From Nitrospira sp. CR1.2 (GTDB taxonomy: Bacteria > Nitrospirota > Nitrospiria > Nitrospirales > Nitrospiraceae), in the NCBI GenBank assembly GCA_014055495.1, contig WIAG01000020.1, positions 1 to 59,286 of the forward strand: 59,286 nucleotides of DNA, read 5' to 3'. Of the stretch, positions 10,437 to 20,903 are shown one piece after another (position 1 is the stretch's first letter; every line of letters begins with the position of its first letter). The translations under genes and the position numbers were made by a program. Below the pieces are notes generated by a model. That model saw only the letters and a program-made list of their open reading frames with translations. It was not told where the DNA came from and made no database searches.

Positions 10437-10823
10437 ATGGGTACTATGATGACCGGTGGCGACAAACCTCTGGCTCCGCCGGTTCCCTCCTGCCCCCCGG
10501 TCGCGCTCAGTACCCGCTTTCAGGTTCGATCATTTCGGCGCTTTCCAGTTCAATGTTCTGTGTATTATTCCTGTGATGCGTTTCAAGGCAGCGGGATGGC
10601 CTGGAACCTCTCCCTCAACGGCTGGCGGGTCGATGGTACGCATCCGGTGGAGCCTGGGATGACGGTCACGCTCTGTATCTTTCTCCCTGATCACCATCCC
10701 ACGGTCTTTGTTGATCGGGCGGTGGTGCGTTGGTCACGCGGCCAGGAGTTCGGGATTGAAGTTGATGCCATCAAAGCCGATGAACGGGCCCGGCTCGAAC
10801 AGTTTGTGACGGCGCTCGTCTAG
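10437..10823 (+). CDS. PilZ-domain protein 1
   Basis: This 128-residue protein is essentially a single PilZ domain, the c-di-GMP receptor fold. It shows RSFRR (RxxxR, residues 31-35) and NLSLNG (residues 57-62, the D/NxSxxG motif), followed by the strand pattern ending in VVRWSRGQEFGIEV. The N-terminal 30 residues look disordered. It is the first of three adjacent PilZ genes on the same strand with no other domain attached, so it probably acts by docking onto a partner when c-di-GMP binds. The start codon is uncertain: ATGs also lie at 10446 and 10449, and no clear ribosome binding site is visible. Confidence 0.85.
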   Translation: MGTMMTGGDKPLAPPVPSCPPVALSTRFQVRSFRRFPVQCSVYYSCDAFQGSGMAWNLSLNGWRVDGTHPVEPGMTVTLCIFLPDHHPTVFVDRAVVRWSRGQEFGIEVDAIKADERARLEQFVTALV

Positions 10824-10979
10824 TTCCTCCCCTGCCGGTGTTTCCACACCCGTGCCTGCGCATCGCGACGGGTGCGTGTGCCGGGAACCAGAATCTCCTT
10901 GGTCATTCTTCGCAAGTTGAGTAGACTCGAGCATGGTCGAGGGTCGTCTCGTCCTCAGTCAACATCGTTGCTCAAGACT

Positions 10980-11324
10980 ATGGCCAAGCCACACACATCT
11001 CGTTCCCATTCGCGCGTGCCGGTCAGCTGCTTTCTTTATTACCTCGGGGAAGGGCTGGTCGGGACCGGCAAGGTCTGTGATTTGTCCGTCAAGGGCTGGC
11101 GGATCGAGGGCGATAAGCCGGTCACGGTGGGTATGAAACTCACCCTGCGGGTTTTTCTGCCTGATCAACCCAAGGCCATCGATGTGGAAGGGGTGACGGT
11201 TCAGTGGGTGAAGGGTCGCGTGTTCGGTCTCGAAACGGTCAGAATGAACGCCGGCGCAGAAGCACGCATTCACAGATTTGTTGAGTCGGTAGTGACGTCT
11301 TCGGATTCCTCCCGCGTCGCCTGA
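10980..11324 (+). CDS. PilZ-domain protein 2
   Basis: This 114-residue PilZ protein has RSHSR (RxxxR, residues 8-12) and DLSVKG (residues 34-39), so both halves of the c-di-GMP site are present. It shares the pattern GW(R)-x-G...GM-L-L-FLPDQP...VEGVTVQWVKG-FGLE with the preceding gene, which suggests tandem duplication. A longer frame from GTG 10872 exists, but the ATG at 10980 places the RxxxR motif near the N-terminus as in related proteins. Confidence 0.83.
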   Translation: MAKPHTSRSHSRVPVSCFLYYLGEGLVGTGKVCDLSVKGWRIEGDKPVTVGMKLTLRVFLPDQPKAIDVEGVTVQWVKGRVFGLETVRMNAGAEARIHRFVESVVTSSDSSRVA

Positions 11325-11478
11325 CGGGGACGGCACGTCCCTCCTTTCCTCCGGTCGTCTCGGCCTTCCTGCCTGTCCTCGTTCCGCAATCAGTCGGCTC
11401 TTGCAGAGGCCCCCACTTTCGGGGACTATCGCGCACTCTGTTGTTTTTCATATTCTGCCGAGGCCTTTGCTTGGAGAA

Positions 11479-11847
11479 ATGATGGAACAACAGAATCGCC
11501 CGCGGTTTATTGTCGAGTGTACCGGATCGCGTTCCGAAGATGGATTGCTCGTGTGGAATGGTCGAATGCTGGACCTTTCCATTCCGGGCTGGTCGCGAAC
11601 CGGACTCAAAGGGTTGCAAGCCGGAGATCTTCTCCAATTGCATCTGCATATTCCCGGACAGTCGAAGCCGCTGTCCGTGAGGTTGGCAGCGATCCGTTGG
11701 GCGAACGACTCTCGGCTCGGGGTCGATCCCATTCTCATGGATGCCGATGATCAACTTCGTCTCAACGATTTCGTGAGCGCACACGCTCCGCTACCGTCGT
11801 TCAACAGCGATCGACGAGAGCAGATTGTCATTTCGGATGCCACATAA
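11479..11847 (+). CDS. PilZ-like protein 3 with degenerate RxxxR motif
   Basis: This 122-residue protein is the third and most diverged member of the tandem set. DLSIPG (residues 32-37) and the downstream strand pattern (LHIPGQSKPLSVRLAAIRWAND) mark it as PilZ-like. The N-terminal arginines are spaced RPR rather than RxxxR, so c-di-GMP binding may be weakened or lost. GGAG lies just upstream of two consecutive ATGs (11479, 11482). The open frame continues upstream to 11401, but that part shows no domain similarity. Confidence 0.75.
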   Translation: MMEQQNRPRFIVECTGSRSEDGLLVWNGRMLDLSIPGWSRTGLKGLQAGDLLQLHLHIPGQSKPLSVRLAAIRWANDSRLGVDPILMDADDQLRLNDFVSAHAPLPSFNSDRREQIVISDAT

Positions 11848-12168: not shown

Positions 12169-13470
12169 ATGACGCCTGGCTCCCAGCTTCCTGATATAAC
12201 CCATACCACGCCCCTGACGCCGGAAACGGAGGCGCAGGTCGACCAATTCGCCCAGACGGATATTTTGGTCGGCATTCCCAGCTTCAATAACGTCGAAACG
12301 ATCGGTCATGTGGTCAAGGCGGTGAGTGCCGGCCTGGCGAAATATTTCCCCGAGGCCCGTGCGGTCTTGGTGAATTCGGACGGCGGGTCCACCGACGGCA
12401 CGCAAGACGTGGTCGCTCAGGCCGTCGTCGATCTCAAGACCCTCTTTATCGGGGATCAACAGAGTTCGCTCCATAAGATCATTACGCCCTATCACGGGAT
12501 CCCCGGAAAGGGCAGCGCATTCCGGACGATCTTTGAAATCGCGCGCCGCTTGAGGGCCAAGGCTTGTGCCGTCGTGGACTCGGACTTGCGCAGCATTACC
12601 CCGGAGTGGATCGAACTGCTGGTGAGTCCGGTGTTTGAGCAGGGGTTCGACTATGTCGCGCCCTATTACCTGAGGCACAAATATGACGGGACCATCACCA
12701 ACAGCATCGTATATCCGTTGACGCGCACGCTCTACGGGCACCGGATCAGGCAGCCGATCGGCGGGGACTTCGGATTCTCCGGCCAACTGGCCCAGCACTA
12801 TTTGGACAAACATGTGTGGGAGTCCGAAGTCGCGAAGTTCGGGATCGACATCTGGATGACGACGGAAGCCATCGCCAGTGGGGCGAGGGTGTGCCAAAGC
12901 TTTCTGGGTGCCAAGATCCACAATCCTAAGGACCCAGCCGCCGACTTGTCGGCGATGTTGGTGCAGGTACTCGGCGCGGTGTTCGCCCTCATGGAAGATC
13001 ATTACGCCGTGTGGGGCAAGACGGACGGCTCGAATGCGGTGCCCCTGTTCGGGTTTCAGTACGAAGTCGGCGTGGAACCGGTCAACGTGAATGTCGATCG
13101 CATGATCAGCACCTTCCGCCAAGGATTGAGCGACCTGGGGACGATCTGGGATCAAATTCTCGCACCAGGAACCAGACAAAGCCTGCGACCGTTGGGGACC
13201 TGCGCGTTACAGGATTTCCGCATCGCCGATAGTCTGTGGGCGCGAGTCGTGTATGACGCGGCCGTCGCCTACCGCAATCGTGTGTTGCCGCGTGATCATG
13301 TGTTGAAGGCGTTTACTCCCTTATATCTGGGGCGGACCGCCTCGTTCGTGCTGGATACTCAGGGGCTGACATCGGGCGAAGCCGAAGGCCGAATCGAGGC
13401 GCTGTGTCAGGCGTTTGAAAAGGATAAGTCGTACCTGGTGGCGCGCTGGAGCGAAACGCATACTAGTTGA
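12169..13470 (+). CDS. GT-A glycosyltransferase resembling mannosyl/glucosylglycerate synthases (GT78/GT81-like)
   Basis: The 433-residue protein has a GT-A fold start (DILVGIPSFNN), a nucleotide-sugar segment NSDGGSTDGT, a PGKGSAFRTIFEIA segment and a metal-binding DSD at residues 137-139. Further motifs are QPIGGDFGFSG and FGIDIWMTTEAI. From memory, the order and spacing of PGKG, DxD, QPxGG and GID follow the Rhodothermus mannosylglycerate synthase pattern. The downstream mechanosensitive channel and MPGP-like phosphatase make a role in making a glycosylglycerate-type compatible solute plausible. This is inference: other GT2-like acceptors are possible. The start could also be GTG 12154, but GGGA lies 7 nt before ATG 12169. 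Confidence 0.8.
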   Translation: MTPGSQLPDITHTTPLTPETEAQVDQFAQTDILVGIPSFNNVETIGHVVKAVSAGLAKYFPEARAVLVNSDGGSTDGTQDVVAQAVVDLKTLFIGDQQSSLHKIITPYHGIPGKGSAFRTIFEIARRLRAKACAVVDSDLRSITPEWIELLVSPVFEQGFDYVAPYYLRHKYDGTITNSIVYPLTRTLYGHRIRQPIGGDFGFSGQLAQHYLDKHVWESEVAKFGIDIWMTTEAIASGARVCQSFLGAKIHNPKDPAADLSAMLVQVLGAVFALMEDHYAVWGKTDGSNAVPLFGFQYEVGVEPVNVNVDRMISTFRQGLSDLGTIWDQILAPGTRQSLRPLGTCALQDFRIADSLWARVVYDAAVAYRNRVLPRDHVLKAFTPLYLGRTASFVLDTQGLTSGEAEGRIEALCQAFEKDKSYLVARWSETHTS

Positions 13471-13527
13471 TGGTCGCGATTCCGTCCATCTGAAGGCAGG
13501 CTGTAGTCGAGGCCGGAGGAGGGAGCT

Positions 13528-14235
13528 ATGAAGGAATTTTTCGAGAAGGGTCTCCTCGACCCTCTGGAGTTGATGGCGCGGCAGGTGCTTGCGGTGTTGC
13601 CGAGCCTCCTGGCGATGTCCATCATTTTCTTCGCGGGCCTCGTGGTGGCGTGGACCGCCAGTCAGGCGCTTGAACGATTGTTGCGTGTGGTCGGGCTGGA
13701 TCGGTTGTTCGATCGATTAGGGGTCACCGGCGCCTTGCTTCGCGGTGGGGTGAAGACCGATCCCTCGCGATTGATCGGGCAAGCCGCCTATTGGCTGGTG
13801 ATGATTTTTGCCACCGTCGCCGCGTTGGGTGCGCTGAACCTCCAACCGATCAACGATTTTGCCAAGTCGTTCCTGGCCTACGTGCCGCACTTGGTGACGG
13901 CCAGTCTGATCTTGATCGCCGGGTGGCTGCTGTCCAACTTCGTTTCCCAGGCGGTGCTGATCGCCGCGGTCAACGCAGGACTGCCTCCCGCGCGCCTGGT
14001 GGCGACGTGTTCCCGCTGGGGCATTCAATTGTTGGCCGTGGCCATGGCGCTGGAGCAACTGGGCATTGCACAAAATATCGTGGTCGTCGGGTTCGGCATT
14101 ACATTGGGCGGAATCGTCATGGCGGGGGCGATTGCCTTCGGTCTGGGTGCAAAGGATTTGGCTAAAGACTACCTTGAGCGGGGGTTGTCGGTTCGCACGC
14201 GCAATGGCGCGCCTGATGATTTGAGGCACTTATGA
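13528..14235 (+). CDS. Mechanosensitive ion channel family protein (conserved TM-helix/MscS-like)
   Basis: This 235-residue membrane protein has five hydrophobic segments near residues 22-46, 86-107, 124-146, 168-187 and 190-215. The last contains Gly/Ala-rich GITLGGIVMAGAIAFGLGAKDLAKDY, which resembles the pore-lining helix of small MscS/CmpX-type channels. It lacks the large beta and C-terminal cytoplasmic domains of full MscS. Such channels release solutes during osmotic downshock or modulate membrane stress. GGAGGAGGGAG precedes the ATG. The gene follows the glycosyltransferase by 57 nt and overlaps the next gene by 4 nt (ATGA), indicating one transcript. Confidence 0.85.
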   Translation: MKEFFEKGLLDPLELMARQVLAVLPSLLAMSIIFFAGLVVAWTASQALERLLRVVGLDRLFDRLGVTGALLRGGVKTDPSRLIGQAAYWLVMIFATVAALGALNLQPINDFAKSFLAYVPHLVTASLILIAGWLLSNFVSQAVLIAAVNAGLPPARLVATCSRWGIQLLAVAMALEQLGIAQNIVVVGFGITLGGIVMAGAIAFGLGAKDLAKDYLERGLSVRTRNGAPDDLRHL

Positions 14236-14483
14236 CGGCTGAGCATGCGTATGAGGGACATGGGATGACCAATAAAATCTCGGAAATCGATGGTGAAGCA
14301 AAGGCACGACGCTGGTTGGGCGGGGAGGCGGCGGTGCCCCGCTACCCGCACCGGCGTCAGAATCCGTTTCGGTTCAACCGCTCGTTGTTGGGGTTGGTGG
14401 CCTTCGCCGTCGGGTTAGGATTTGCCGGTGGGTTGTTGATAGGATTGCAGAGCCGTCGCCCCACTGTCCCACCGAAGGGCTAA
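14232..14483 (+). CDS. Small single-span membrane protein
   Basis: The 83-residue product has a charged N-terminal half and one transmembrane helix near residues 52-72 (LLGLVAFAVGLGFAGGLLIGL), then a short basic tail. Its ATG overlaps the stop of the channel gene, so the two are translationally coupled. I do not recognise a family. It may be an accessory subunit of the channel, which is inference from position only. Confidence 0.6.
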   Translation: MTAEHAYEGHGMTNKISEIDGEAKARRWLGGEAAVPRYPHRRQNPFRFNRSLLGLVAFAVGLGFAGGLLIGLQSRRPTVPPKG

Positions 14484-14544
14484 TCATGCGTCGACCGCTG
14501 TATCGTTGGCTCAAGGTGGTGCGAGAGTGCCGCTCGGCAGAGCC

Positions 14545-15369
14545 TCACAGACGAGACAAGAGAGCGGTGAGACTTCGGTTCCATCCGACCGGGCCGACTC
14601 CATCAGCGCGGATGAGGTGGGGAAGCTGCACATCCGGGTCGTAGGAGCCGTCGGGTTTCCGGACCAGGATGGGATAGTCGACTTCCGCCAACATGGGACG
14701 ATCATTGAGGCTGTCCCCGATGCCGATGGTCACCGGCCGCTGCCCGTTCCGCTCCGCTAACCGCTCATACCACGACATAAGCCTTCTACTCGCTATTCCT
14801 TTATCGTTCGCGCCCATCACGTGATAAAACCGTCCTCCCTTGGTGCAGCGCAACCCCTGCGTGGCCACCGCGGCAAGGAGCCGATCCCAGGCGACTCCTT
14901 TGTCTTCCAGAATAAACGGCTCGTCATACTCACGCTGAGTCGCTAAGAGGGCCTCGGCGGTTGGCAAACCAGTCAAGTGGGCGACTTCTTCAACGGTGAG
15001 ATCGCCGAATCCCCGCAACCGGCAACCGAGTTCCTCTCGAATGCGGTTCAAGGCTGCTCGAAGCGTGACATAGGGGGTGCCGATTTCGACGACCTCGTAT
15101 CCATCCCGAGTGGATGCCTCTGCAATCGGAAAGGAAAAAGTGCCTCTGGGAATGAACAGGGCCCCGCCGTTTTCGACAATAAAGGGATGGTGATTGTTCA
15201 GTCGGCGGCGCAGCGGCTCCATTTCCGACCTGGTTTTGCTGGACACCAGAATAAGCGTCGCGCCGCGTTGTTCGAGCAGCGCGAGTGCTTCAGCAGCGGC
15301 CTCGTGGGAATAGGTCTCCGTGTCGAGCAGGCTCCCGTCTAGGTCTGTAAAAATGAGGATGCGGCGCAT
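14545..15369 (-). CDS. Mannosyl-3-phosphoglycerate phosphatase-like HAD hydrolase
   Basis: The 274-residue HAD IIB (Cof-type) enzyme has motif I FTDLDGSLLD, motif II LVSSKT, the cap region, KG in HVMGANDKG and motif IV GIGDSLNDRPML. The SSKTRSEM and VENGGALFIP segments are characteristic of MPGP/YedP, which dephosphorylates mannosyl-3-phosphoglycerate to mannosylglycerate. It is convergent with the glycosyltransferase-channel genes. AAGGAG lies 14 nt before the ATG. If the neighbouring glycosyltransferase makes a phosphorylated intermediate, this would be the second step. Glucosyl-3-phosphoglycerate or mannosyl-3-phosphoglycerate are both possible substrates. Confidence 0.85.
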   Translation of the reverse strand: MRRILIFTDLDGSLLDTETYSHEAAAEALALLEQRGATLILVSSKTRSEMEPLRRRLNNHHPFIVENGGALFIPRGTFSFPIAEASTRDGYEVVEIGTPYVTLRAALNRIREELGCRLRGFGDLTVEEVAHLTGLPTAEALLATQREYDEPFILEDKGVAWDRLLAAVATQGLRCTKGGRFYHVMGANDKGIASRRLMSWYERLAERNGQRPVTIGIGDSLNDRPMLAEVDYPILVRKPDGSYDPDVQLPHLIRADGVGPVGWNRSLTALLSRL

Positions 15370-16112: not shown

Positions 16113-19100
16113 GTGCGATTCGATAAAAAACCGCCCCTCAAATCCGACAAGAAAGCCTCGCCAAAGACCCAGAAGAAGGGCAGCATCGGCTACAACAAAA
16201 AGTCGGCGTTGCTCGAAGACGCCATTACACAGATGAACGCGGGCAAGTATGGCCGCGCTTCAGCCGCCCTGAAAGACCTTCTTGCGCTTGACCCGCTCAA
16301 TGCCGAAGCTCGACGGCTATTTGCCACGCTGCATTTGCGACTAGGCAGTCTCATGAGCGCCAGGACGGCGTTCGAATCGTTGGCCCGGGAAGCCATGGAG
16401 CGTCAGGATTATTGGTTGGCAGAGTCGCTCTTGCGTGAATACCTCACGGCGGGCCCGCGGTATGTCCCTTTCCTGGACATGCTGGGACATGTCTATGAAG
16501 AAAAGGGCGACGTCATGGCCGCGGTGGCCGAATACGGCAAGGCGGTCGAAGTGTTGCTGGAAGACCCCGATGCTGAGAAGCCAAACCGGCCCGGTGAACT
16601 CTTTGCGCGCATTCGTTCGCTCGCGCCCGGGAGTCCGGTCGCCTTCCGCTTTGCTGCCATGTTTGACACCGTGACGGGGCAAGTGTTGCAGGCGACTCCC
16701 CAGCCTGCGCCTGCCGATGTGGCAAGTGAACCGGTTGCTGCCGAGGCGGTGCCGGACTCGACCGAGGAGCACACCGGGCTCATGCCGTGGGAGCACATGG
16801 ACCCGGTCCAGGTCAGTCCAGTGACGACGGAGGTGTCGTCTGCCTCTGTAGCGGAGCCATCACCGGAGGCTCTGGATGCGGTCGCGTCTACGGCCCTACC
16901 GGTTGAAGCAGCGTCAGTGGCTGGTCCAGAGGAGGCGCTCGCCGATAGGTCGACACCGGCGAAAGCCGTGGCGTCGGATGCCACGCCGGAACCTGAGGTG
17001 TCTGTCGAACCGGCACTCACCCTTTCAGTTGGTGCGGCAGAGCCTCTCGAAGTCGTCGTTCAGGATCTCCCGCCGGTGAGCCACAAGACTGCTGCGTCGA
17101 CGGAAGAGATGGCGTGGCCTGCCTTGCCGGTTGGGGACATGCCCCAGCCTGTGATCGAAGTCCAGAGGGAACCCAATCCGCAGCCGATAGCCCAGGCGCC
17201 GACCGGGCCCACAGCGATGCCATGGGATCAGGTCGAGGAGGATGTGGTTGTCATCGACCCCGTCTCTCAAGGTCTGGAACCGAGCGCGACGGAAGAGGCC
17301 ATGACACCAGCTCCTGCGCAGTCAGCTGAGTCGACCTTGGCCCCAGCATCTGTGGTTCTCCCGGTTCCTCCTGTCCTTGAGGTGTTGGCGCAGAGTGGGA
17401 GTCACCCGATTGCCGAGATGCCCAAGAGTCCGGCACCTATGCCTTGGGATCAAGTGGAGGAGGCGGCCATCCTGATTCCAGCGCCGACCGAGCCTTCGGC
17501 ATCGGTCACAGAAAACAGCGAAGCGGTGCCGGCGGTAGAGCCTGAAGCGGCATCAGCACCGACTGAGACGACGCGTCCCACCATCGAAATCCTCGCGCAG
17601 ACCAGCAGTCATCCGATTGCCCAGGCATCGACGAGCCCGGCCTCCATGCCATGGGACCAAGTTCAGGAGGGGACGGATTCGACGTCGGCAGCTGCTGAGC
17701 GCGCAGGTGAGGACCCCGGCGTGGGGCTCACCCCGCCCAGCGAGACCGCAGTGGACCGGGCCGTGGCGGATACTCCTGCGACCGTTGAGCAGGCCGCTGG
17801 ACAGGCCCGCTCTGAAGTCACCTCCTCAGGCATGACGTGGGACGAAATTCTTGCGGCGGTCGCGGCCATGCAAACTCCCCCTGAGCCAGCATCACCCCAG
17901 GTCCATGAGCCGCCGGTGACGGTGTCCGACCAGCCTCCAGCGGCATCATCTGTTCCCGTTCACACTGACTCTGCTGATGCTGTTCATCCAGCCCCGTTGT
18001 CGACCGATGTGTCGGCGGTAGAGCCCTCGGTTGATTTGGCCGTGGCCGCTCCCTCCTTGTCGGCGCCCATGCCGTGGGAGCAGCTCGAAGTTGAGCAAGT
18101 CTCGATTCCGCAGCAGGAGCCGGAAGTAGAAGTCGCCCCCATCACGGTTGAGGTCGCGGGGGTTGAGCAGGAGGCCGGCCGGGTGTCGGCAGCTGCCTCG
18201 GAGCCGTCCGAGCCGGAGACGGCGGTGGAGGTCGCCGAACAACAGAGCATGGTCGTCCCTGCCCTGGATGCGCATGCCGATGTCGCATCGGGGGAAACAA
18301 TTCCGTCTGCAGACGGTGCGATGGCGCTACAACGTGAATCGATCCTGTTGCCCGTAGAGACAGAGCACAGGATAGAGGCACTCCGAACGATTCATGAGCC
18401 GCCGCCGGATCTGTTACCCGAAGAGTTGCCGAAAGCTGACTCGCCCTCGAACGCCACGGAAGTGCAGTCTGCGGAGCCGTCTTTCCGCTTTGCCGAGAAC
18501 ACCATGCTGCCGCCTTCGGCAGCAGAGGGACCGTCTCCTCTCGACATGGAGCCGGTTGCAGATTTCGTGATTGCCGAAAGCCACCAGGGATCTGTGGAAG
18601 GCTCTTCGTCCGACGTGGGTTCACCCGTGGGGGAACCTGTTGAGGCGACGGTCGTGCAGGAGGTCGCCGAGCCGGATCGGATCGATATCGCTCCGGATTC
18701 GCCTGTCTCGTCCGTCTCGCCTGAGCCATTCGTCGAGCCCCTCGTCGCCGAAACGGAAGAGACCGGGGTGCCGCCGCTGGCTACTGCCGAACCCGAGAGT
18801 CCGTCGGTACCGGAGGATACTCTCGTTCTTGCGCAGGAATCGATGCTCCTTCCCGAGGCCGACAACCCGTCTCAGGCTCCGGCGGACGAATCCGTCGACG
18901 AACATTCCGAGCGCCGGCCTGTGTCGACCGAGGTCATGCAAGAGCTGTCGGCGGTTTCGGATATTCATGAAGCAACGTCGGCTCCTGAGGAAGCAGCGGG
19001 CCCGGCTCCCATCCCGGTTGAGTCTGTGGATGTCCCGCAGTCCATGATGTCAGACGGTGTTGCAGAGGTGGAGGTGCCGCTTGAACCTGTCGTGGTTCTG

Positions 19101-20903
19101 TCAGGAGAAGTGCCCACGCCTACGGCACCGGTCCCCTCCGAACCGGTTGCCGATGACAGTGTGAAAATTCTCTGGGAAGATGCCTCCGCGCCGCCCGCCG
19201 CAGCCTCTGGCGGAAACATGCTGACCCGCTGGTTCAAAAAATCCGCAACGACGGTCCCCGCCGACGCCGGTGCGGTGGCAGAGGAAGCACCGGCTGTCGA
19301 CGAACCATCCCTTGCGGCGGAAGCTCCGCTGCCGTTGCATGAGGAAACTCCCGTCGAGCCTGTGGAGGAGCCCGCGCTCGAGCCGGTCACACAGGCTGCG
19401 CCGGTTCTTGTGCACGAGCCCTCTCCGCGACCTGCGCTCAGCCATCCTGCCGGGAAACCTGTGTGGACTCGCGCGGGAGAGGCGGTGGCCTCGCTCGTCG
19501 GCGCCGGAGTGTCCACGACGCGATCGTTGGTAGTCATGGTGCTGGCCCTGGTCGGGCTTGCGTTGTTCCTTGTCGGGGGAACGGTGGCCTTGGTGGCGCT
19601 CACATGGATGGTTCTCGAGGAGCAGCCGAGTGCCGCCTATCGCAACATGACATCGGTGCCGCAACAGCTGCTGCAGGATTCGACCAAGAACGGTTATTTC
19701 CTTCTCCTCGGCCTGGGTGCGTCCTCGACACAGGATCCGATTCAGGTCGCGATGGACCGACGCGTCGAAGGAGCCGATCAGGCCTTTGCGCATGCCTGCC
19801 TGAACGGGGAAGGCGCAGGGGCCGGCGAGGACCAAAGCGCAGCGGCCGAGGCGGCCGGCAAATGGATCAAGGCCTCAGACCCGGCCTTGCAGATGTCTCA
19901 GAACGCCGGTGGGGTAAAGGGCTTGGTGTCCCAGAACGAGGTCGGGTTGGCACGGTATCGGCAATGGTTGAGCAAGCCGTTTGAAGACGAGGGATACGGA
20001 AAGCCGATCAGCCCGAACTGCGGCCTGATCCTCCAGACCCATCGGCTCCATGTGGCGGAAGGGTTTGCGCAGGATGTCGAGACAGGGGTGGCCCGGCTCG
20101 AAACCGATCTGACGGCGTGGCGAACGGTGTTGGGGAAGTCCAGGACCATGCCGATGAAATTGCTGGCTGCTGCCGCGATGAATGATGACATTGCGATTAT
20201 GGGAGGGCTCCTCCAGCGGCCCGATCTCGATGAACGCCAGATCGGCCGGTTGGCCAAACTGGCGCGGCCGCTTGAGCCGGCGGAGCAATCCGTTCGCTGG
20301 CCGATGCAGAGTCAGTTCGTGCTGGCCACGAACACAGTGGATGAGGCCATCAGCCGTGACCGGGCTGCTACCCGTCCGTTCTACGGCGCGATTGCGGCGG
20401 CGTTGCCCCTGCCCAAACAGCGCCGGTTTAATGCCTACGCCGAATATTATGACGCGGCCGGAAAAGCCGCGGCCGACGGCCGGTATGCCGATTTGCCGAA
20501 GCAATCGCACTATGTGCATGCGCCTCCGTACGGCGTGAGCGATGTTGTGCTGAATCCCATCGAGAGCCTCGTCGGAGTCGATCCCCTTCCCACCTGGGAG
20601 GTCTATGCCGGTCGAGTGCTGGAAACCGATGCGCGCTTGAGACTGGCCTCACTGCAGGCGTGGTTGCGCCGGACACCGACGGAGCAAGACCTGCTGACCA
20701 GGCTCGCCAAGGCCGGACAAGGCGTGTATGACCCCTTCACGGGCCTGCCGATGTTGGTGAATCTTAAGAAAGGTGTCCTCTACAGCGTCGGTTCTGACCT
20801 CAAGGACAATGAAGCGCACGAGCGTCTCGACCTGGTGGCCCAGATTCCGCCGGTTGCCTGGGCCGGCGGAAAGAAGGGGGCTGACCAAAGCGCCCCCAAG
20901 TAA
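16113..20903 (+). CDS. Giant TPR protein with disordered MPWD-repeat region, one membrane span and C-terminal domain
   Basis: The 1596-residue protein starts at a GTG. Residues 1-30 are very Lys-rich, and residues 28-160 form tetratricopeptide-like helices (AITQMNAGKYGRASAALKDLL). Residues 190-1125 are Pro/Ala/Glu/Val-rich and probably disordered. They contain MPW(D/E) motifs at residues 224, 369, 443, 512 and 653 and an MTWDE at 574. Three copies sit in about 29-residue repeats (348-376, 422-451, 491-520) of the form IExxAQxxSHPIAxxxxSPxxMPWDQV. A second motif, ESxLLP, recurs around 735-920. A single transmembrane helix lies near 1138-1166, followed by a 430-residue mostly helical domain. 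The topology suggests a cytoplasmic TPR/tether and an extracytoplasmic C-terminus. I do not recognise the family. The gene stands alone. Confidence 0.85.
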   Translation: MRFDKKPPLKSDKKASPKTQKKGSIGYNKKSALLEDAITQMNAGKYGRASAALKDLLALDPLNAEARRLFATLHLRLGSLMSARTAFESLAREAMERQDYWLAESLLREYLTAGPRYVPFLDMLGHVYEEKGDVMAAVAEYGKAVEVLLEDPDAEKPNRPGELFARIRSLAPGSPVAFRFAAMFDTVTGQVLQATPQPAPADVASEPVAAEAVPDSTEEHTGLMPWEHMDPVQVSPVTTEVSSASVAEPSPEALDAVASTALPVEAASVAGPEEALADRSTPAKAVASDATPEPEVSVEPALTLSVGAAEPLEVVVQDLPPVSHKTAASTEEMAWPALPVGDMPQPVIEVQREPNPQPIAQAPTGPTAMPWDQVEEDVVVIDPVSQGLEPSATEEAMTPAPAQSAESTLAPASVVLPVPPVLEVLAQSGSHPIAEMPKSPAPMPWDQVEEAAILIPAPTEPSASVTENSEAVPAVEPEAASAPTETTRPTIEILAQTSSHPIAQASTSPASMPWDQVQEGTDSTSAAAERAGEDPGVGLTPPSETAVDRAVADTPATVEQAAGQARSEVTSSGMTWDEILAAVAAMQTPPEPASPQVHEPPVTVSDQPPAASSVPVHTDSADAVHPAPLSTDVSAVEPSVDLAVAAPSLSAPMPWEQLEVEQVSIPQQEPEVEVAPITVEVAGVEQEAGRVSAAASEPSEPETAVEVAEQQSMVVPALDAHADVASGETIPSADGAMALQRESILLPVETEHRIEALRTIHEPPPDLLPEELPKADSPSNATEVQSAEPSFRFAENTMLPPSAAEGPSPLDMEPVADFVIAESHQGSVEGSSSDVGSPVGEPVEATVVQEVAEPDRIDIAPDSPVSSVSPEPFVEPLVAETEETGVPPLATAEPESPSVPEDTLVLAQESMLLPEADNPSQAPADESVDEHSERRPVSTEVMQELSAVSDIHEATSAPEEAAGPAPIPVESVDVPQSMMSDGVAEVEVPLEPVVVLSGEVPTPTAPVPSEPVADDSVKILWEDASAPPAAASGGNMLTRWFKKSATTVPADAGAVAEEAPAVDEPSLAAEAPLPLHEETPVEPVEEPALEPVTQAAPVLVHEPSPRPALSHPAGKPVWTRAGEAVASLVGAGVSTTRSLVVMVLALVGLALFLVGGTVALVALTWMVLEEQPSAAYRNMTSVPQQLLQDSTKNGYFLLLGLGASSTQDPIQVAMDRRVEGADQAFAHACLNGEGAGAGEDQSAAAEAAGKWIKASDPALQMSQNAGGVKGLVSQNEVGLARYRQWLSKPFEDEGYGKPISPNCGLILQTHRLHVAEGFAQDVETGVARLETDLTAWRTVLGKSRTMPMKLLAAAAMNDDIAIMGGLLQRPDLDERQIGRLAKLARPLEPAEQSVRWPMQSQFVLATNTVDEAISRDRAATRPFYGAIAAALPLPKQRRFNAYAEYYDAAGKAAADGRYADLPKQSHYVHAPPYGVSDVVLNPIESLVGVDPLPTWEVYAGRVLETDARLRLASLQAWLRRTPTEQDLLTRLAKAGQGVYDPFTGLPMLVNLKKGVLYSVGSDLKDNEAHERLDLVAQIPPVAWAGGKKGADQSAPK

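Follow-up and report, generated by a model that had tools for sequence, protein, structure and literature searches.

The synthesis of compatible solutes and their mechanosensitive release are usually regarded as two systems apart from each other. On the synthetic side, the mannosylglycerate synthase (MGS, GT78) of Rhodothermus marinus (PDB 2BO4, 2Y4K) works in one step on D-glycerate. The enzymes of the mannosylglucosylglycerate (MGG) pathway of Petrotoga mobilis are GpgS, MggA and a phosphatase, and to our knowledge no channel partner is known in that pathway. MGG itself exists in both P. mobilis and Rhodopirellula baltica (PMC3694870), and in mycobacteria GpgS, GpgP and a proposed second synthase (for diglucosylglycerate) start the methylglucose lipopolysaccharide, MGLP (PMC4555173). 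The literature that we searched describes no glycosylglycerate (glucosyl- or mannosylglycerate) pathway in Nitrospira, and it held nothing on point tying a glucosylglycerate enzyme to a mechanosensitive channel.

The window analysed here, a stretch of 59,286 nucleotides from Nitrospira sp. CR1.2 (contig WIAG01000020.1), carries a glycosyltransferase (hereafter GT), a small MscS-type channel, a one-TM protein and a phosphatase side by side. We consider it moderately probable that the late reactions leading to a sugar-glycerate osmolyte are encoded at this locus, together with an exit channel. Nitrospira, one of the main nitrite oxidisers, would thereby be credited with a probable osmolyte pathway, and the synthesis and the exit of an osmotic protectant may be handled by one unit, both in this genus and in several other bacterial groups.

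Layout and conservation of the locus

All four open reading frames are confirmed as real and conserved. The GT78-like GT (433 aa, 12169-13470, forward strand) starts at ATG 12169, just upstream of which many relatives have a stop. It is followed on the same strand by the channel of the MscS superfamily (235 aa, 13528-14235) and the one-TM protein, while the HAD-IIB phosphatase (274 aa, 14545-15369, reverse strand) is convergent. The locus genes are present in 23 of the 24 other genomes of the genus, with a gene order that is constant wherever the neighbourhood was mapped, so the grouping that the initial annotation had pointed out extends to the close relatives. Within Nitrospira, identity reaches 94-98% for the GT, 96-100% for the channel and 64-90% for the phosphatase, and the best named relatives are Nitrospira genomes, including Candidatus Nitrospira defluvii. 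The one exception (G024) is without the GT, the phosphatase and this channel, and has a paralogous pair of the type discussed below.

The small protein had been described as an 83-residue membrane protein overlapping the channel. Its single TM segment stands, but the length and the overlap probably do not. The protein probably starts at ATG 14265 (72 aa, 14265-14483, forward strand), the 83-aa reading from 14232 being probably too long: the first 11 residues of that reading are unconserved and the upstream frame is closed by stops in most relatives, which makes a true overlap with the channel improbable, and the relatives share sequence and an AGGA-type ribosome-binding site only from 14265 onward. 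With this start, translational coupling through the overlap is unsupported. Searches of Pfam and NCBIfam found no family match for the protein, and among the mapped loci it occurs only in the window's genus.

Family and predicted fold of the glycosyltransferase

Pfam recognises the generic GT2 domain alone (PF00535) in the GT, and against the GpgS equivalog model of NCBIfam (PRK13915) the protein scores 50.5 bits, far under the cut-off of 262, which leaves it outside the GT81 GpgS equivalog. A structure model built on relatives (pLDDT 75.5) came closest to R. marinus MGS, with a Z of 28.5 over 360 residues, an rmsd of 4.5 and 17% identity; the next matches, ArnC and GpgS, lie at a Z of about 16. 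In this model the GT has the MGS fold over both domains, that is, along the full length including the C-terminal domain. A profile of 29 GT relatives also retrieved MGS first (E 8.8e-8) and GpgS, a related GT-A enzyme, second (8.4e-7). MGS was found with this deeper profile and not with a single-protein PDB search or a smaller GT profile. The Pfam model of the MGS glycosyltransferase domain (PF21969, MGS_GT) matches 13 of the 29 family members, the best at 1.9e-8, and does not match the window protein. Fold and profile together group the GT with MGS and GpgS, in agreement with its first labelling as GT78/GT81-like; a plain GT2 enzyme was rejected, and the GT does not fall into an unrelated GT2 clade.

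Sharing about 16-17% identity, MGS and the GT have in common a GKG lysine, a DxD motif, a (W/F)GID aspartate, a histidine ligand and a PxGG(E/D) donor motif. The GKG, DSD, PIGGD, FGID and AKIH of the GT align on the PGKG, DAD, PLGGE, WGID and KAH of MGS, and by this alignment K114, D137, D139, D227 and H251 correspond to the GKG lysine, the DAD aspartates, the WGID aspartate and the KAH histidine. None of the five varies among 98 core GTs. According to the GpgS structure paper, the MgS counterparts Lys76, Asp100 and Asp192 lie in the donor pocket, and the PLGGE of MgS, which uses mannose, stands against the PLSGE of GpgS, linked to discrimination against mannose (PMC2581804). The PIGG motif, set against the PLSGE of GpgS, is invariant in the GT family, mild evidence pointing to a mannose-tolerant donor pocket.

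Pathway partners

The phosphatase passes TIGR01486 (234.3 bits, cut-off 164.75) and misses the equivalog TIGR02461 (231.5 bits, cut-off 244.35); we therefore assign it to the MPGP family, as first annotated, and not to the mannosyl-3-phosphoglycerate equivalog. Its best solved relative is the mannosyl-3-phosphoglycerate phosphatase 3ztw (E 1.5e-39). The genomes of the phylum that were covered number 245, 104 of them with a core GT. The phosphatase occurs in 99 of these 104 (a count uncorrected for relatedness), and on this co-occurrence the idea of an unrelated neighbour was rejected. Some loci also hold a glycerate 2-kinase, either next to the phosphatase or fused to it; at L112:1302-3494 and L117:6777-8990 an MPGP-family phosphatase and a MOFRL-type glycerate 2-kinase form one protein.

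The described glycosylglycerate module is real, but its extent was drawn too narrowly, the enzyme missed being glucosyl-3-phosphoglycerate synthase (GpgS, GT81), which lies elsewhere in this genome and is adjacent or fused to the GT in relatives. The window-genome copy, unlinked to the locus (G000:C161:23985-25208), is of the archaeal type (NF040724) and, at 354-387 bits, stays under the equivalog cut-off of 700 bits. Archaeal-type GpgS is found in 101 of the 104 core-GT genomes and the remaining three carry a GpgS-GT fusion (again uncorrected for relatedness), while GpgS without a core GT occurs in only three of the 245. The fused GpgS, in three genomes, is of the mycobacterial type, over the curated cut-off, and shares a single open frame with the GT.

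The loci themselves come from a scan of genome contigs; of 565 relatives the best 80 were retained, which reaches down to a GT identity of about 58%. Within these best 80, GpgS lies near the GT in 53, usually just upstream, and the gene orders differ (phosphatase-GpgS-GT-channel, GpgS-GT-channel-phosphatase and others). Seventeen loci without a nearby GpgS were tested, and 14 of them have the gene elsewhere in the genome. Two of the other three (L102 and L116) lie on contigs that start a short way upstream of the cluster; in the third genome (L124), which has the GT, the phosphatase and a glycerate kinase, archaeal-type GpgS was not found and no mycobacterial-type match was over the cut-off. 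GpgS would thus appear, from its distribution, to be almost always in the pathway as the partner of the GT.

In the window's genus GpgS adjoins a thiamine-diphosphate enzyme and two genes of no known family, and 21 of the best 80 of 565 relatives have a similar thiamine-diphosphate gene ahead of the cluster. With this gene standing beside both GpgS and the clusters elsewhere, the window locus is best read as a split cluster from which GpgS was relocated in this genus. The two genes that separate the thiamine-diphosphate enzyme from GpgS in the window genome (L165:4039-6355) are also found beside GpgS in relatives of the genus.

Proposed pathway

Mechanistically, GpgS would join NDP-glucose and 3-phosphoglycerate to glucosyl-3-phosphoglycerate, to which the GT would add a second sugar, giving a diglycosyl-3-phosphoglycerate. 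The phosphatase would then remove the phosphate, leaving an anionic solute of the mannosylglucosylglycerate or diglucosylglycerate type, and the channel would let out this solute or ions on osmotic downshift. By analogy with the MGG pathway of P. mobilis, in which GpgS is likewise followed by a second glycosyltransferase and a phosphatase, we infer that the GT acts second, on glucosyl-3-phosphoglycerate; the likeness drawn here is one of pathway logic, and genes for all three kinds of enzyme are present in the window genome. The second sugar is more likely mannose than glucose, and the product most likely a diglycosyl-glycerate of the MGG kind. Acceptor and donor sugar, like the osmotic role, the cargo of the channel and its physical contact with the GT, are what we infer from these comparisons. 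A GDP-mannose-forming enzyme is only weakly indicated in the window genome, and ADP-glucose- or trehalose-type genes neighbour the GT in some loci.

Since MGS is a one-step enzyme acting on free glycerate, a one-step role of the GT is possible as well: an NDP-sugar and D-glycerate would be joined to mannosyl- or glucosylglycerate, in parallel to the route through GpgS and the phosphatase. This is near the reading of the initial annotation, whose GT78/GT81 type of enzyme holds, and it agrees with MGS being the closest fold and with the glycerate 2-kinase of some clusters, which makes glycerate a relevant metabolite; Fernandes (in 2010) reportedly found two alternative pathways for a related solute in one organism. 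An independent one-step synthase would, however, be expected to turn up often in genomes that lack GpgS, whereas all 104 of the 104 genomes with a core GT have GpgS as well, fusions included, and the two are joined in one protein in three of them. Unlike MGS, the GT family is followed by the channel and tracks GpgS across the phylum, a pattern that is better explained by a second step than by a one-step synthase working on its own, which we consider unlikely. Mycobacterial MGLP, where glucosylglycerate is the primer, together with the glycogen- and trehalose-type genes near some copies, would also allow a pathway that primes an intracellular polysaccharide, with the GT making a diglycosylglycerate primer and the channel being there for another reason. 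Among the recurrent neighbours, however, no sugar-modifying methyltransferase or acyltransferase stood out, and the channel has no evident part in such a pathway, so that this explanation seems very improbable next to our proposal of a second glycosylation followed by dephosphorylation.

Linkage of the channel to the glycosyltransferase

The channel passes NF033912 (107.9 bits, cut-off 100) and matches PF05552 with 57.4 bits, in line with its first description as a small MscS-type channel. Its model is all-helical to residue 226 and ends in a disordered tail. Neither Pfam nor the model revealed an MscS beta domain or cytoplasmic cage in the 235 residues, only the PF05552 helices. The protein is predicted not to be a canonical MscS: it has the TM helices conserved in E. 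coli MscS and the NF033912 channels, but no detected beta domain or cage, and it carries a special C-terminal tail (...DDLRHL). Foldseek with the channel model gave no match under E 0.001; the match to MscS, in the TM part alone (87 columns, rmsd 2.4, probability 0.98, E 2.2), is no more than suggestive.

In each of the 80 loci (the best 80 of 565 relatives) the gene immediately 3' of the GT is the channel, encoded on the same strand at a distance of 15-305 nt; these loci span Nitrospirota, Zixibacteria, Acidobacteria, KSB1, deltaproteobacteria, Gallionellales and others. The pairing also holds in the 15 of these best 80 that have neither GpgS nor the phosphatase nearby. The last six residues of the linked channels read roughly [DE][DE][LIF]x-H-[LI]. 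The histidine at -2, found in 117 of 120 linked channels (one of the three without it is a broken match), is better conserved than any other of the last 30 positions, the preceding linker being variable; the tail is absent from 16 of 16 unlinked homologues. Rooting the channel tree on one outgroup was uninformative, and an unrooted split test divides the linked from the unlinked channels with no error (support 0.973). The GT and channel distances correlate (Mantel r 0.80, with 0 of 999 permutations as high). Genetically, the coupling of synthase and channel is strongly supported.

Paralogous pairs with a degenerate enzyme

Among 26 paralogous GTs, 24 are without one to four of the five catalytic residues, the losses falling mainly on the GKG lysine (replaced by arginine), the second DxD aspartate and the histidine. 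A channel adjoins every residue-losing paralogue except L183, and no channel was detected with L190 and L196, the paralogues that have all five. Pairs of a degenerate GT and an MscS-type channel were seen at L027, L028, L029, L032, L034, L035, L177-L182, L184-L189 and L191-L195. Two genomes with such a pair alone (G121 and G180) were searched for GpgS and the phosphatase, and both were not found. As the pairs are kept despite the catalytic loss, the GT-like protein seems to serve the channel in a way that is separable from catalysis.

A tentative and rather unlikely extension of this idea is that the GT is a cytoplasmic subunit of the channel, which would bind the His-Leu/Ile tail, replace the MscS cage and couple the synthesis or level of the solute to gating; the paralogous enzyme would then be a catalytically dead sensor still controlling its channel. 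The fixed combination of synthase and cage-less channel across phyla, its versions with an inactive enzyme and the shared tail would suggest a metabolic enzyme as channel regulator. Adjacency is no proof of contact, though, and the linked channels form one clade, so the shared tail could be ancestral. It is possible, if somewhat unlikely, that the two genes are adjacent by operon inheritance only, the channel being a general emergency valve unlinked to solute or enzyme, a reading that concerns the coupling alone and is compatible with the proposed pathway. Against it, the pair is found in every one of the 80 loci (the best 80 of 565 relatives) and in several phyla while GpgS and the phosphatase come and go, it is kept as a unit in the paralogues even where the catalytic residues of the GT are lost, and the last residues of the channel are conserved behind a variable linker.

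Neighbouring genes

Three tandem small proteins are encoded just upstream of the GT on the forward strand. The first two (10437-10823 and 10872-11324) are PilZ domains according to Pfam, and the third (11401-11847) looks like a divergent PilZ copy below the Pfam threshold; similar genes stand upstream of the GT in 7 of the 80 loci (the best 80 of 565 relatives). Beyond the phosphatase, a 1596-aa protein (16113-20903, forward strand) has an N-terminal TPR region and a long Pro/Ala/Glu-rich middle that contains repeated MPW(D/E)(Q/H) motifs, and a similar gene recurs in near relatives.
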